NCBI GenBank assembly: GCA_013176395.1
Contig: JABMLP010000016.1
Location: 372,001-436,000, forward strand
Direction of reading: 5' to 3'
DNA length: 64,000 bases
Source: Venturia oleaginea
Taxonomy: Eukaryota > Ascomycota > Dothideomycetes > Venturiales > Venturiaceae
The translations under genes and the position numbers were made by a program. The notes beneath the pieces were generated by a model. The model was not told the DNA's origin. It saw only the letters and a list, made by a program, of their open reading frames with translations, and ran no database searches. Positions 53,727 to 63,086 of the stretch are shown here, in pieces. Positions within the stretch are counted from its first letter, which is position 1. Every line of letters begins with the position of its first letter.

Positions 53727-54912
53727 TCATGCCTCTTGTAACGGGTGCTTGTCTGACGGTGACGCCACTCGACGGAACCCGAACGTATGAAGTTTGCGCC
53801 TCCAAGTGTCCCAATGTCTCACAGTCATCATAGCCAAGACAAACAATATGATCGCCACAGCAACAGAGACACCTGCGATGAGGTAGTTCTTGCCGACACT
53901 CTTCGGTACATCTGGAACTGGTTTGGACCCAGGGCCGTCCCACGGAGCAACGAACGAGTTGCCAGTCGTCGATACTGGAGGCATGAGCGCGACTTGGTCA
54001 TCGTGGATCTTGCAAACTTTAGCCGTATCGTATTCGGGACAAGCGATGGCAAAGCGCTTCATCTCTCTCGACTCCGATGAGTTGAAGTAGAGATGCGTGT
54101 ACTGGATCGTGATTGCTGTGTCCTGGACTGGTGGTCCAGCTGACCAGCCTGCATCGCCATTGCTCCAATGGTTTAAGACCATGTGGCCCGGACTGTTGGG
54201 TATATCATGCGTAAACACCTTGAGTAGGACGCCGTCGGCGTAGTATGAGATCGAACCTGGAATCCAGTCGAAGCGGTACTCGTGGAAGTCACCGTCGGGG
54301 CGGAAGGGAAGCTTTTGTACGTCGTAGCCAGGTGTGTATGCTGCGTTGAAGCCAGCGGCTTGAGAATCGGGTGACTGGTTGACAAGATTGACGATGCCGC
54401 CGTTCTCGTACTGCTTAGAGAGAAACTCCATATCAATCTCTTGTGTGTTGTTGCGGAACTGTGGTCATCAGTAGCCATTCGAAGCGGCTAAAATGGTTTG
54501 TAGAGCTCACCCAAAAGAACGCTCCACAAGTGCCATTGATGCCTGTCATCTTGGCTTTGACTCGAAAACTGCCGTACAGCATATCCGATCGTTGCGTCGA
54601 AATTTCGGCCATTGGGATGGAGTCGCCGGACGATTTTTTGACCCATAATTGTAGTCCTTGCTTCGAAGGAACGACGTTCTTTATGGATGCGATCTTTCCA
54701 TAGGGCCCTCGTGCTATCGGCTTGGGAACACTGTAATTCTGAGGTATCCAGCCACCAAGAATGGCTTGTGTAAAGTCTGTTTCGACAAATTCGGTGAAGA
54801 CCTGGTGCGAAGGGGAGTCTGTAGAGTTGACAGAAAAGCCACACTCACAGGTTGCGGCTGTGAGTGTAGACAACAGGGCAAAAGAAGTGACAATGGGTAG
54901 AAAAGAGATCAT
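53727..54912 (-). CDS. Glycoside hydrolase family 16 protein with C-terminal membrane anchor
   Basis: Exons 54912-54511 and 54458-53727 give 377 aa. Signal peptide MISFLPIVTSFALLSTLTAA is followed by CECGFSVNS. The beta-jelly-roll fold shows IASIKNVVPSKQGLQLWVKK, ISTQRSDMLYGSFRVKAKM and GTCGAFFW; across the 52-nt intron it reads FRNNTQEIDMEFLSKQY. The catalytic motif is E141-I-D143-M-E145. Substrate-side strands include FHEYRFDWIPGSISYYADG and HMVLNHWSNGDAGWSAGPP. A single transmembrane helix at residues 326-347 (YLIAGVSVAVAIILFVLAMM) and a basic cytosolic tail follow. GH16 enzymes of fungi cut or transfer beta-1,3(4)-glucan; a wall-remodelling role at the plasma membrane is inferred. The anchor is a true helix with a long tail, not a GPI signal. 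Confidence 0.88.
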
Positions 54913-55513
54913 TTTGAATGCGTATACCTGGAAATTGAAACTGCGTCTGTAGAGAAAGTCTGAATGGAAGTCCTTGGTGTTGTTGTTTGATTGGAAATGG
55001 GAGAGAGAAGGTCGCATGATTTTGTACTGGATGTTATGGCAGGAGCGCATTGAGCGTCGTGGCTGCCGTTCTGGTCAACGCGGCCGCTGCGAAGCAGTAC
55101 GAAATACTGATGCTATACTAAGAGACACACGATAAGTGAGAGCCCTGTTAGTCGGAAATGGCCAGAAACGATCAAGGTCCTGCCAGTTCGAAAGGCCTGT
55201 ACAGGCATTGAATAGCTTCTAGACAGCGGTTGTGGTCTGGTGCGCATCAAGACGAGAAATGGACGTACCTTCAGAGTCTCATTCTCGTGCCCAATACATC
55301 CAAGTATACAATTTCACTGAAAGACCTGAGAGGACGATCCCAGCCACGAAGGCGCGCGTGCACCATTCGTGTGTGATATCAAGATCACCGACTTCACGAC
55401 TTCACAGTGTGACTAGCGTCGGTATCAATTCTCTGTACGGCATTTGAATCAGCTGAAGCTCTCTGGTAGTAGTTCAAATAATGTACCATGGTAATATTTC
55501 TATAGACAATACA
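54913..55513. other. Spacer between GH16 and ABC transporter genes
   Basis: Includes the GH16 promoter and the ABC transporter 3' UTR (both genes are on the minus strand). Contains GCGGCCGC at about 55081. No gene seen. Confidence 0.45.
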
Positions 55514-58500
55514 TCACCTATCCAAAGCCTGCGACTGACACATCTCATGGTAAACCCCTTTCTTAGCCAATAACTCCCTGTGCGTCCCCCTTTCCAACAC
55601 CCGCCCAGTCCCAAGCACAAAGATAACATCCGCATTCTGAATCGTAGCAAGCCGATGCGCAACAGCAATGATCGTTCTCCTCCCTCCCTTCGCCGCCTTT
55701 TCAATAGCCTGCTGAACCTGCCTTTCACTCTCCGAGTCCAAATTACTGGTCGATTCGTCTAGTAAGAGAAGTTGTGGTTGGCGGAGGAGTGCACGTGCAA
55801 GAGCAAGACGTTGGCGTTGACCGCCTGAGAGGGCGATTCCTTTGGATCCGATTTGGGTGGCGTAACCTTCTGGAAGGGAAGTGATGAATGTGTGGATCTG
55901 GGCGGAGGTGCAGGCTGCTTCTATTGCTGCGTCTGTGGCTTCAGATTCGGATACGGAGAGGGCGATGTTTTCTCGGATCGTGCCTAGACAACTGTAAGCT
56001 CTCCACTTTTCAAGAAGGGGTTGATTTGTACGAACCTTGATAGAGTGTGGACTCCTGGGCGACGATGGAGAGATTTTTGCGGTAGGATGCGGCGTCTACT
56101 TCGGCGATGTTTTCGCCGTCGAACAGGATCTTACCAGATGTTGGTTCGTAGAAGCTGTTAAGATGAGTTATTGGCCAGACTGAGTGATGACTGAACGGGT
56201 ACATACCGTTCAAGGAGCGAGATCATGGTCGACTTGCCACTTCCTGAGGCACCTACAAAAGCGGCGAACTGTCCAGGCTCAATTTTCAGATTGATTTTGT
56301 CGAGGACTGTGATGTCACGGCCTGTATAGCTGAAGGACACGTCTTTGAATTCAATACTTGCAGGCCCATCGTTTGTGAGCATTTTTTGAGCTGACTGTCG
56401 TTGTTCTGATGGCGACGGTCTGCAGCTCAAAATCCTGTTTGCTGCCGCTGTTGCCTCCACGATGTTGGGTGAAAATGAGAACCACATGCCCGCAGCTAGT
56501 GTGCTTTGCGTCACGGCCATATATATGACGAAGAAATTCACGGCGCTGTACTCCCGGTTTGCGAGAAGCTGACCACCGTACCTGGGTTTATTAGCGGCGA
56601 CCAATTTGAGATCTTACATGCTTACCAGAAGACTAAGGCTTGACACAGTAGATCTGCACTGTCCGAAAAGGCAAATACAAGTGTCGCCCATTTCGCCTTT
56701 TTCAAAGCCTTCTGAGCATGCTCCGACAGCAGCTCCTCGAATCTGTTCTCGATATGCTCCTCCATTGTCAGAGCAGTGACCGTCCTGAAGCCAGCGATGG
56801 CTTCAGCTCCGAATTGACTGGTCTCGGCAAAGACAACAGCATTGAGCTTCTCATTGGAAGACTCGAGAGAAACGCGCCAGTATCCTGCTGCAAGGATGAT
56901 AGGCATGACAATACCAATTCCAACAAGGGATAGTTTCCAGCCGAAAACGAAAGAAATGATGACACTGCCAACGATACTCAGGACACCAACAAGAGACATG
57001 CCCATCTCTGTCCCAAGTAGCTGCTGTAGATGTGATGAATCAGTCGAAAGTCGTGCAGCCAGAGCTCCAGGCGAATTCTCCTCCTTGTCAAAGTAGGGGA
57101 TTCGTTTCCGCACCATGTTCTCGAGACACTCTTGTCGATAGAAAGTGGACACCACTGTAGACACCAGTGAGGCGGCCCATCCCAAACACAAGAATGCGAG
57201 TCCGACAACAACAGCTTGAACACCAAACATCATCGCCCAGAAGTTTCCACGGCTGACCAATTGCGCTCTTGCCATTGTGAAAACTTCAACCACCTTGGCG
57301 AAGAAATATGCTTGAACTGGGTATGTTGCACCGCCGCCCAAGACTCCAATCAGAGTGAGCAGGTAGAGCCACCAGTTCGTCCGTTGCTCGTAGACTAGAA
57401 CACCCAGACTTTTCATGAATCCTTTGCTCGTGCCTTCCTTCTCTGCTTTCTGCAGGAACTCAGCGGACGTACTCGAAAGAAGTCCTGGGTTTCCTTTTGG
57501 CACCTGTGCTTGCTCTTCGATAGTGATTTCGTCCTCGTCAATATCTTGGTCATCGTTACTCCCCATCTCCACGGATTGGGCACGCACGAAGCCGCTATAA
57601 ATGCCCTCCTGGTTGAAAAGTAGCTGTTCGTGAGTACCCTGTTCAACAAGCTGACCAGCCCTCAGGACCACAATCTTATCCGCTTTCTTAATCGTTGATA
57701 ACCGATGCGCAATTGTGATGGTCGTCCTGAATTTTGATACCCGATCCAGAGCTTTCTGCACAATCTTCTCTGTTCTCACATCAATTGCAGACGTCGCCTC
57801 ATCTAGAATGAGAATCTGGGGTTCCTTGACGATGGCGCGCGCAATTGCGATACGCTGTCGCTGGCCGCCACTCATCTTCATCCCACTCTTTCCGACCGTC
57901 GTATCATACCCCAAAGGAAGTTTTTGAATGAACTCGTCCGCGTAGGCTTCTCTACAAGCCCATTGCACCATAAGCAATTTCATATCATGCGGAGAGTCCT
58001 GCCATTTTGTTCCCGAAAGTCCATTGGCCACGTTATTAAAAATGGTGTCGTTGAAAAGGAACGGCTCCTGTTGCACAAGTCCGACATTACTCCGCCACCA
58101 TTTGACATCAATGTCACTCAGATTGGTGTCCCCGATGAAAATTCCGGATGGTTTTGATGACGGAAGGGGACCGGCACCAGGCGTTACCTTTTCAATTCTG
58201 TCGGGAAGATCCAAATCTTCGACTTCGAGATCCATCCAGCTGTACGAGGAGTTGTCGTCCCTGGAGGAAGGGGGAGCAGGATCGTACCATCTCTCCAGTA
58301 AGCCAACTACCGTGCTCTTTCCAGACCCGGAAGGGCCAACGATTGCGGTCGTCTTGCCAGCCTCAAAACGAACGCTTATTCCGTCCAGAATGGTTGCGTC
58401 GGGTCGAGATGGATATGAGAATGAAACGTTCTTGAAAACGATGTCTTCAGCAACAGAAACATCGGGGTCCTTAAAGCCGGTAATATCTGGCAATTTGGCA

Positions 58501-59922
58501 TCCAAGACGTGGAAGATCTCCGCTGAGGCCGCAGCGGCACGGATGATCTGGGTGATCGGACTGGACAACCGGTAGAGCGTCATTACCGCCCATAGTACAG
58601 AAAAGAGGACCCTAGAGAATCAGTACAAAACGGTAACGGTCAAAGGTTGGTAATAGGAGCATACACTATGGAAATGAATTAGCTAGCTAGTCTGACAGGT
58701 TGATGCGTCCGGGCCTTACCTATAATCGTGGCAATTCCCTCGATACGGCCATTAATATATTGTTTGATCCCGAACCAAAAGGAGAGAGCAAACGTCGCAT
58801 AAACTGCGAGGAACATAGGCGCCATGAGTAGTCCCATCAACGGAGCTTGCTTGCGGTCAAACTTTTGTGCTCTCTCGAGGATTGAATGGTGCTTGGCGCC
58901 GAGACGTTCTTCTGCACCGAATGCTACCACAATGCGAATCGATTCGAACATTTCGAAGGCTAGCGTGGATGCCTCATCTTTGACGATTTCTCCTTGGTGG
59001 TAGTATTTGTTGAGAAGTGGAAGTGCAATCACATAAGCGATGAGGGCTATTGGCAATGAAGCACTAGCGACCAGAGTGAGCAGAAAGCTCTTTGCGAAAG
59101 AGACGATGTACAATCCGAGCGTGAAAGAGATGGCCTGGAGAGCGAACGAGAATTGCTGGGAGATACCATTTTCGATCGTATTGCAATTACTGGTCAGCCG
59201 GCTGGCGATAACACCTGGAGACGTCTCGTCGATTGTGTCTACAGATTGTAAAAACAAGGCTTTAAGGTAAGCAAGCCGTACTCTAGCAGATATTCGCAAG
59301 CCACTTATCCGGATTAACAGCTATATCAAATATGTTAGTGCTGAAATAATCTCTCAAGAGGCAGCTCGTACAAAGGCAATGTACGACAATGCGAATCTTG
59401 CTAGGCCCAGATAAGTCATGTACAGACTGTCACAAAGAGTCAGTATAAGAACCTGGGAGATCTTAAAAGGAGGACTCACGCGTTCTGGTTCACCGACGCC
59501 TTGAATTGTGCTTTCGTGATGACTTCTGGTTTGAAAGTGAAAGTCCCGATCGTGATCGGTGGTGTCGTATTAAAGTATGCTGTGAAGTCGCCCACCATCT
59601 TTCCGAAAACAAGAAACATCAGAGGCATGGCGATCCCAGATGCAAGCGCACTGAAGAAACATAGCCCGATCATTAGCCAGTCAAACTTGGTCCCGAATTT
59701 GAGAACGCGCTGTGATCAATAAGCTTGATGAAAGCGAGTTCATCACACTTGCATACTCACGAAGAAATCGCTCATTTTAGCTGGCGGAGCCTTTTCCTTT
59801 TTCCCAGCATCCATTTTGTCGCCATGGTCTGAAGTGGTATGCACCGAGCCAGCTCTCTCAGATCCAAGCTCTTCCAGGAGTATAGACTCGGTCGTCACCT
59901 TCATGAAATCCTCTTTGCCCAT
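55514..59922 (-). CDS. Full-size ABC transporter, ABCB/MDR type, with a one-nucleotide exon
   Basis: Exons in order: 59922-59761, 59709-59480, 59426-59372, 59320-58720, 58665 (one base), 58611-56626, 56581-56207, 56154-56036, 55983-55514; total 1332 codons plus stop with every phase consistent. The layout is TMD-NBD-TMD-NBD with about 12 helices. NBD1 has GPSGSGKST, MSGGQRQRIAIARA, ILILDEATSAID and AHRLST. NBD2 has GASGSGKST, LSGGQRQRLALARA, LLLLDESTSNLD and AHRLAT. This is a P-glycoprotein/Pmd1-like exporter; drug, lipid or secondary-metabolite efflux is possible, substrate unknown. Between exon 4 (GIATII) and the frame starting VLFSVLWAVM, two well-formed introns (58719-58666, 54 nt; 58664-58612, 53 nt) flank a single T. 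Using one long intron instead would bring a stop within about ten codons. Confidence 0.92.
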
Positions 59923-62224: not shown

Positions 62225-63086
62225 TTATTTAACTAGCAGATAACTCAATAATACAAATTTTAAAGTAAAGTAAGCAAAGCAATCACCCCCATCAAACCCA
62301 ATCAAAGCAACAAACCCCTCTCTATCTTCGCGAAAAACCAACATCAAACCATCGCAGCGAGTAACAAATACAATCACATCCTCCCTTGCACAAATATTCT
62401 GTAACCCCCATTCCCATACAAATCCCCAGATCCAAGAACCGGTCTCCATCGAGTTGACGTTGACGTTGGGGTTGGGGTTGGAGTGGTAGGTGGTAGGGCC
62501 AGACTCGATGGAGCTGGGGCTGGGAGTGTACTTGTTTTTTTTAAGCTTGTCATACTTGAGAGGACTGTTGATATTGCCGGTGCCGGACTCGATGGAGTAG
62601 TAGGGGCTGGGGCTGGGAGTATACTTTTTTTTTTAAGCTTATCGTACTCGAGAGGACTGTTGATATTGCCGGTGCCGGACTCGATGGAGTAGTAGGGGCT
62701 GGGGCTGGGAGTGTACTTGTTTTTTTTAAGCTTGTCATACTTGAGAGGACTGTTGATATTGCTGGTGCCGGACTCGATGGAGTAGTAGGGGCTGGGGCTG
62801 GGAGTGTACTTAGTTTTTTTAAGCCTGTCGTATTCGAGAGGATTGTTGATGTGCTCTCATTCCTGTTCGCATCATCCGATTTAGATGCATCCTGACTCTT
62901 GGGCGGTGCCGGATCAGACTTCGGCGCATCCGGTTTAGGATGCTGTTTCCTCCACTTTTCCACATCCTTCTTGTACTCTTGGAGTCGTTCTGCCTCTGTG
63001 AGACCCTGAAGCAATCGGAACCCAGGCCCAAAGATGAGGTCAATGTGGCCGAAATGATCGGGGTGAAGCCCTATGCCTGCTTCCGT
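62225..63086 (-). pseudogene. Downstream half of the Ala-rich gene, broken in frame
   Basis: After the TGA that ends the upstream frame (63089-63087) the same frame stays open: GIGLHPDHFGHIDLIFGPGF, LLQGLTEAERLQEYKKDVEK, a Pro/Lys linker, then 31-residue repeats (ISTVLSSMTSLKKTSTLP). In the third repeat a missing base in the poly-A tract shifts the frame, which ends at 62550. A further frame at 62449-62225 (METGSWIWGFVWEWGLQ) may be the old C-terminus. Either the gene is decaying or the two breaks are assembly errors at a homopolymer. A short intron spanning the TGA was considered, but its phase does not fit. Confidence 0.4.
62513..62830 (-). repeat. Tandem repeat of about 93 bp, 3.4 copies, each with a poly-A tract
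   Basis: On the coding (minus) strand each unit contains ACTCCCAGCCCCAGCCCC, ACTCGAGTCCGG-like and TTAAAAAAAA segments. One unit (poly-A near 62625-62635) is one base shorter, with ten uninterrupted A where the others have A8 plus a C. In the open frame the unit codes PAPAPTTPSSPAPAISTVLS. Confidence 0.9.

Follow-up and report, generated by a model that had tools for sequence, protein, structure and literature searches.

In the open-licence papers covered by our literature search, nuclear exons of a single nucleotide are reported in two genes, Arabidopsis APC11 (Guo and Liu 2015, PMC4674806) and Fusarium CYP621A (Nelson and Syed 2026, PMC12940212), the latter being, by its authors' count, the second case and the first fungal one. 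Further nuclear one-base exons may be catalogued among plant microexons, since the catalogues reach down to 1 nt (PMC12409088), and exons of one base are also on record in mitochondria (PMC5436844, PMC12308204). In the stwintrons, a splice element of the external intron is interrupted by an internal one that must leave first (PMC9024468), and it has been proposed that they originate when a new intron arises inside the terminal splice site of an older one (PMC9024468, PMC5639578). Exons of one base probe the lower limit of the capacity of the spliceosome. A one-nucleotide intron shift, in which intron positions lie one base apart, was reportedly described by Fekete et al. in NAR in 2017, with a mechanism that runs via stwintrons.

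Here, we analysed a window, by which we mean the whole stretch of 64,000 nucleotides from Venturia oleaginea to which all coordinates below refer, where an original prediction made from the letters alone had placed a one-base exon in an ABC transporter gene. The gene occupies 55514..59922 on the minus strand, a strand that the prediction did not give, and contains eight introns including the pair studied here. With the pair and the six further introns removed, the reading frame runs from the ATG at 59922 to the stop ending at 55514 and holds its phase over 1332 codons before the stop, just as had been claimed. Pfam matches to PF00664 and PF00005 were found in the open reading frame pieces of the transporter, and solved homologues, for example 7qkr_A and ABCB1 chains, match two stretches that cover both transporter halves. 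Judged by its sequence, the gene product is an ABCB/MDR-type full transporter, whose single chain combines two transmembrane domains with two ATP-binding cassettes and whose relatives include P-glycoprotein and the fungal a-factor exporter.

The exon upstream of the pair (58720..59320, minus strand), which carries an ABC_membrane Pfam match, ends in ...ATT ATA G, that is, in phase 1. Intron 1 (58666..58719, minus strand; 54 nt, phase 1) reads GTAAGG...CATAG, with GCTAATTCATTTCCATAG at its 3′ end, and is followed by the single T at 58665..58665 and by intron 2 (58612..58664, minus strand; 53 nt, phase 2), which reads GTATGC...CTCTAG with TACTGATTCTCTAG at its 3′ end. Branch-point motifs were assigned by consensus in both introns, CTAAT at 58678..58682 in intron 1 and CTGAT at 58619..58623 in intron 2, and the predicted arrangement of two complete, adjacent GT-AG introns around one T was thereby recovered. 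The downstream exon (56626..58611, minus strand) begins with G GTC CTC TTT TCT in phase 2. The T would be the middle base of the Val350 codon, G-T-G, and the peptide predicted over the junction that contains it is ...GIATIIVVLFSV...; Val350 lies in the transmembrane domain, just ahead of the first ATP-binding cassette. The remaining six introns of the gene, all on the same strand, measure 44-53 nt each and lie at 59710..59760 (51 nt, phase 0), 59427..59479 (53 nt, phase 2), 59321..59371 (51 nt, phase 0), 56582..56625 (44 nt, phase 2), 56155..56206 (52 nt, phase 2) and 55984..56035 (52 nt, phase 1).

We enumerated splice solutions between 58540 and 58800 that preserve the downstream frame, allowing one intron, two introns or nested introns and setting the minimum intron length at 35 nt. 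Among GT-AG solutions in this range, the combination of 54 nt, T and 53 nt was the only one that retained the whole conserved stretch to ATII, and none of the nested ones retained the conserved residues. When GC donors were added, two more solutions, with one and with two introns, kept the stretch, with 3-4 inserted residues and poor GC donors. Skipping the T, with the 108 nt out as one intron, gave ATIIGSSFLYYGR and then a stop; keeping intron 1 gave ATIIGKARTHQPVRLAS and a stop, and keeping intron 2 gave ATIIVYAPITNL and a stop. The stop thus falls at most 14 codons past ATII in each of these three cases, in agreement with the original prediction, which had expected a stop from removal of the stretch as one intron or retention of either part. 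As candidates in the enumeration, a single 108-nt intron was rejected for the frameshift, longer introns for the conserved residues that they lose, and the GC-donor solutions for their extra residues. Because the 1332-codon frame is open with the T kept and stops early when the T is skipped or either intron stays, because no other GT-AG solution retains the whole conserved stretch, and because the homologue residues, the Venturia gene models, the paralogue, the protein fragments, the shuffles and the intron sizes presented below agree with it, we consider it very probable that the T at 58665 is an exon of one nucleotide between two separately removed introns of 54 and 53 nt.

The closest counterpart is found in CYP621A, as described in PMC12940212: both are fungal nuclear genes in which the exon, with a phase-1 boundary on one side and a phase-2 boundary on the other, supplies the middle base of a codon in a conserved motif, and in both the doubled intron exceeds twice the usual size and gene models fail. 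The two cases differ in the gene, the fungal class and the base, which is a G in AGGGT in Fusarium and a T in AGTGT here. They probably also differ in origin, since the authors of the CYP621A paper propose a base loss rescued by a cryptic exon, whereas the paralogue described below points to intron gain; and the CYP621A exon is backed by RNA reads (PMC12940212), whereas the present one is predicted from DNA sequence. The exon of APC11 is likewise constitutive, flanked by AG and GT and essential for the frame, but belongs to a plant and was shown by cDNA and reporter constructs (PMC4674806). With these two precedents (PMC4674806, PMC12940212), single-base exons remain very rare, as the original prediction had stated, but are not without precedent. 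Two U2 introns at one site are a feature shared with stwintrons (PMC9024468, PMC5639578); in those, however, a splice element is interrupted and the order is forced, whereas the introns of the present pair are complete and leave one base as an exon. Unlike the one-nucleotide intron shift, the present gene has both positions occupied simultaneously. The locus could reveal how intron positions shift by one base, which is an old question.

Splice-site strength and chance bear on the first of the rival explanations, a single 108-nt intron accompanied by a one-base assembly error or a genuine frameshift allele, with AG-T-GT present by chance. A single-base error would yield exactly such a phase mismatch, and the acceptor of intron 2 is weak and its donor middling. 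In a comparison with 71 introns inferred de novo, whose selection partly by donor and branch motif makes the percentiles rough, intron 1 was ordinary (donor at the 65th, acceptor at the 38th percentile) and intron 2 weaker (31st and 10th); 53% of all minus-strand AG dinucleotides in the window score as high as the intron 2 acceptor, while 12% of all GT equal its donor. We shuffled the interior of the 108 nt 20,000 times with dinucleotides preserved and the first 6 and last 20 bases fixed, counting a shuffle when an internal AG-N-GT divided it into parts of no less than 42 nt, with a branch motif ahead of the AG and a donor at least as good as that of intron 2. An equally good split with a one-nucleotide exon arose in 3 of the 20,000 shuffles under these cut-offs, which were chosen after the locus was seen, in 16 with a looser donor cut, and in 95 when an exon of any size from 0 to 30 nt was permitted. 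The same donor and branch filters were applied to GT..AG stretches of 96-120 nt in 261,606 sampled bases of the genome (GC, 48.9%), the window among them; 233 stretches passed, and a one-base-exon split was possible in one of these, the present locus. A tally of intron lengths over 42-140 nt, too noisy to carry weight, placed 26 of 42 candidates below 70 nt, the others being thinly spread. Besides the shuffle and genome counts, the remainder of the 1332-codon frame is open, two further Venturia gene models break at the same junction and, in a paralogue, the place of intron 2 is taken by an intron of 52 nt, all of which argues against the single 108-nt intron and makes it improbable.

We aligned 120 listed homologues of 3278 scored matches. 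Residues 343-357 are free of indels in 111 of the 120, the other nine rows being P0001, P0002, P0005, P0019, P0063, P0090, P0094, P0096 and P0113. In column 350, the 120 listed homologues carry V (81), I (31), T (3), N (2), L (2) and one gap, and two of the 81 V come from the defective models of V. nashicola and V. inaequalis. Since the codons for V, I and L all have T as their middle base, the identity of the one-base exon fits 114 of the 120 listed homologues. These two Venturia species, of the order Venturiales, are the closest annotated relatives among the matches listed (V. nashicola, P0001, 88%; V. inaequalis, P0002, 85%), and their models pass from ...MAPMFLA straight to V-VLFSVLWAV with the same 28 residues gone, a stretch that is present in 117 of the 120 listed homologues. 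Failure of both models at this point would be expected where a phase-1 donor faces a phase-2 acceptor, and not at a normal intron; the two sequences suggest that gene prediction turned to a phase-2 donor farther upstream instead, and the shared loss of 28 residues is likely an annotation error. P0002 also lacks 6 residues at a different intron, so this model is not otherwise error-free. A one-base exon would account for an annotation error that recurs in two deposited Venturia pump models, and genes with an unexplained phase mismatch and a doubled intron would be worth searching for such exons.

The same two models, which omit much the same stretch, are what favours a longer single intron, of 164 nt (donor GTTCGG) or 182 nt (donor GTTTGC), with its donor in the upstream exon; both versions leave the frame open and would give a protein without 19 or 25 residues before VLFSV, the stretch at issue being GIKQYINGRIEGIATII. 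That stretch is retained in 117 of the 120 listed homologues, and it is open and conserved to ATII both in the window and in three Venturia-like fragments. Such an intron would have roughly three times the length of the others of the gene and would leave two well-formed introns unexplained, and we consider it quite improbable. The alignment also weighs on a GC-AG solution, with either one 95-nt intron (GCATCA following GAC) or two 49-nt introns around a 5-nt exon, whose products, ATII-GKART-VLFSV or ATII-GKCM-VLFSV, preserve the frame and all conserved residues. It inserts 3-4 residues where 111 of the 120 listed homologues have no indel, it ignores the well-formed donors GTAAGG and GTATGC, and its own donors (GCATCA, GCCCGG and GCTCCT) bear little resemblance to GCAAG, the usual form of a GC donor; we regard it as very improbable. 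A strict stwintron, in which the order of removal would be imposed by an internal intron lying within a splice element of the external intron, earns the same low credit: a filamentous ascomycete with two standard-size introns side by side at one position would suit it, but both introns are complete ahead of any splicing, the T would stay in the mRNA and nested GT-AG solutions lose conserved residues, so the stwintron mechanism that the original prediction had found attractive was not sustained.

For the one-base exon itself, an ordinary course of splicing may be proposed. In filamentous fungi, short introns are spliced by intron definition. The pair would consist of two ordinary U2-type introns, each recognised as a unit and excised separately. 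With a single base between the AG of intron 1 and the GT of intron 2, both could hardly be occupied simultaneously; on these steric grounds, removal is most likely sequential and could proceed in either order. If the first donor were joined directly to the last acceptor, the T would be lost and the frame would end early. The ordered removal envisaged by the original prediction thus stands as far as sequential removal is likely, for steric reasons only, and falls where it would have the order forced by the sequence. The prediction had further suggested that the first splice would create a G-T just upstream of the second donor; but ATAG terminates the upstream exon as well as intron 1, so that ATAGT precedes donor 2 whether or not intron 1 has been removed, and the first splice supplies nothing to the second. 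At about 54 nt, the flanking introns would fit into a reporter, and a natural comparison exists within the genome, in a paralogue that lacks the upstream intron.

This nearest paralogue found (contig C2 of the same genome) shares 55% identity with the upstream exon over 179 residues. It has a single 52-nt phase-2 intron at the same codon, where ATT ACA GT is followed by the donor GTTGGT... and the intron ends in GCTAACCCTATACTAG before C GTT CTG; in the range tested, this was the only GT-AG solution. Because the paralogue has the downstream phase-2 intron only, intron 2 sits at the usual position and the additional intron is intron 1. The simplest history suggested by the two sequences is that intron 1 was gained one base upstream of an old donor: the downstream phase-2 intron would be the older, and the exon would have been born when a second intron inserted one base upstream. 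The ATAG shared by the ends of the upstream exon and intron 1 is compatible with insertion between short repeats, but is too short to be evidence for it. No similarity was detected between introns 1 and 2 (local score of 12, reached in 921 of 2000 shuffles), nor between either of them and the intron of the paralogue (scores reached in 85% and 95% of 1000 shuffles, respectively); because these three introns are dissimilar, duplication of one intron is not demonstrable.

Protein fragments in the database were used to follow the junction beyond annotated genes. Many of the unnamed ones look like open reading frames called without introns, whose tails would then read into the intron. The tails of 99 fragments were classed by eye, a phase-1 tail being one that continues with G or S and then K, Q, E, T, W or N, and a phase-2 tail one that ends in V, M or T or continues with Y. 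There were 15 phase-1 tails (P0122, P0123, P0124, P0129, P0132, P0133, P0134, P0154, P0156, P0167, P0168, P0169, P0179, P0181 and P0188), 41 phase-2 tails, 36 that run on into VLFSV, some of which are annotated models from which an intron may have been removed, 5 that end earlier and 2 that are ambiguous (P0153, and P0219, a distant protein of 27% identity that ends in V). All three Venturia-like fragments, P0122, P0123 and P0124 (88-89% identity), are of phase 1: IATII is followed by G-K or G-Q, which on the donor side, the only side that these tails cover, fits a phase-1 donor of G followed by GTAAR or GTCAR. P0188, which is 73% identical to one Microthyrium protein, has the tail G-K-S. The tail of P0153 was decoded by eye as ...SIT-VSVFLG..., with an apparent shifted frame of VLF later on; this suggests a GTGAGT donor two bases too early for a phase-2 acceptor, and the oddity may stem from an error, from a gene that is broken or from a donor other than GT.

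On the acceptor side, 120 listed of 1730 downstream matches were inspected, and seven unnamed fragments among these 120 start inside the intron (P0251, P0260, P0281, P0286, P0314, P0319 and P0322). All seven have a phase-2 acceptor, seen as an R or S that precedes VLF or the corresponding residues; P0281 lies closest to Microthyrium, and none of the seven is Venturia-like. P0314, which was matched with P0177, a fragment with a phase-2 donor, probably represents an ordinary single intron. This tally excludes five oddly starting proteins that are named and annotated (P0265, P0283, P0284, P0292 and P0295) and the fragments that begin at residue 351 (P0241, P0248, P0261 and P0270). The seven closest downstream fragments, P0220-P0226, all begin at the residue aligned to 360, past the junction. 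Donor and acceptor were found together in none of the phase-1 relatives, as judged by eye among the 120 listed of 1730 downstream matches, and pattern searches for the DNA of a relative gave 10 matches in viral_contigs and 50 in genome_contigs, of which none was confirmed.

Two Microthyrium microscopicum proteins (P0005 and P0019; Microthyriales) have one extra residue at the junction, I-V/I-G-N-VLFSV, in which G-N replaces V. Their sequences suggest that GGTAA of a GTAAGT donor was kept, as if a move by 4 bases had restored the frame with the phase-2 acceptor, and a like phase mismatch may thus exist in Microthyrium. The original prediction had proposed a comparison of the same position in related fungi, and there the homologues, the two Venturia gene models and the three Venturia-like fragments fit the one-base exon. 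A Tothia protein, from the same order as Venturia, is normal at the junction, and P0131, the fragment nearest to Tothia (86.5%), is of phase 2; the arrangement is therefore not uniform within the order. Given that 15 of the 99 tails are of phase 1 and 41 of phase 2, together with the Microthyrium G-N and the seven phase-2 acceptors, we put forward, tentatively and as somewhat doubtful, that the one-base exon is old or recurrent in this transporter family across Venturiales and Microthyriales, and that the twin introns represent an intermediate of a one-nucleotide intron slide. In that case, an ancestral phase-2 intron would have been joined by a phase-1 intron acquired one base ahead of it, with some lineages retaining both introns and the one-base exon between them, and others later keeping just one.

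Two further features were observed in the window outside the transporter gene. A 213-aa open frame on the minus strand at 54433-55074 has a hydrophobic, signal-like stretch followed by TCECGFSVN; it gave no Pfam match at an E value of 0.001, and we take it to resemble the start of secreted glycoside hydrolases. A tandem array at 62513-62850 consists of 3.6 copies of a 93-base unit with 92% matches, and its minus-strand frames contain repeats such as KYTPSPSPYYSIESGTGNINSPL.
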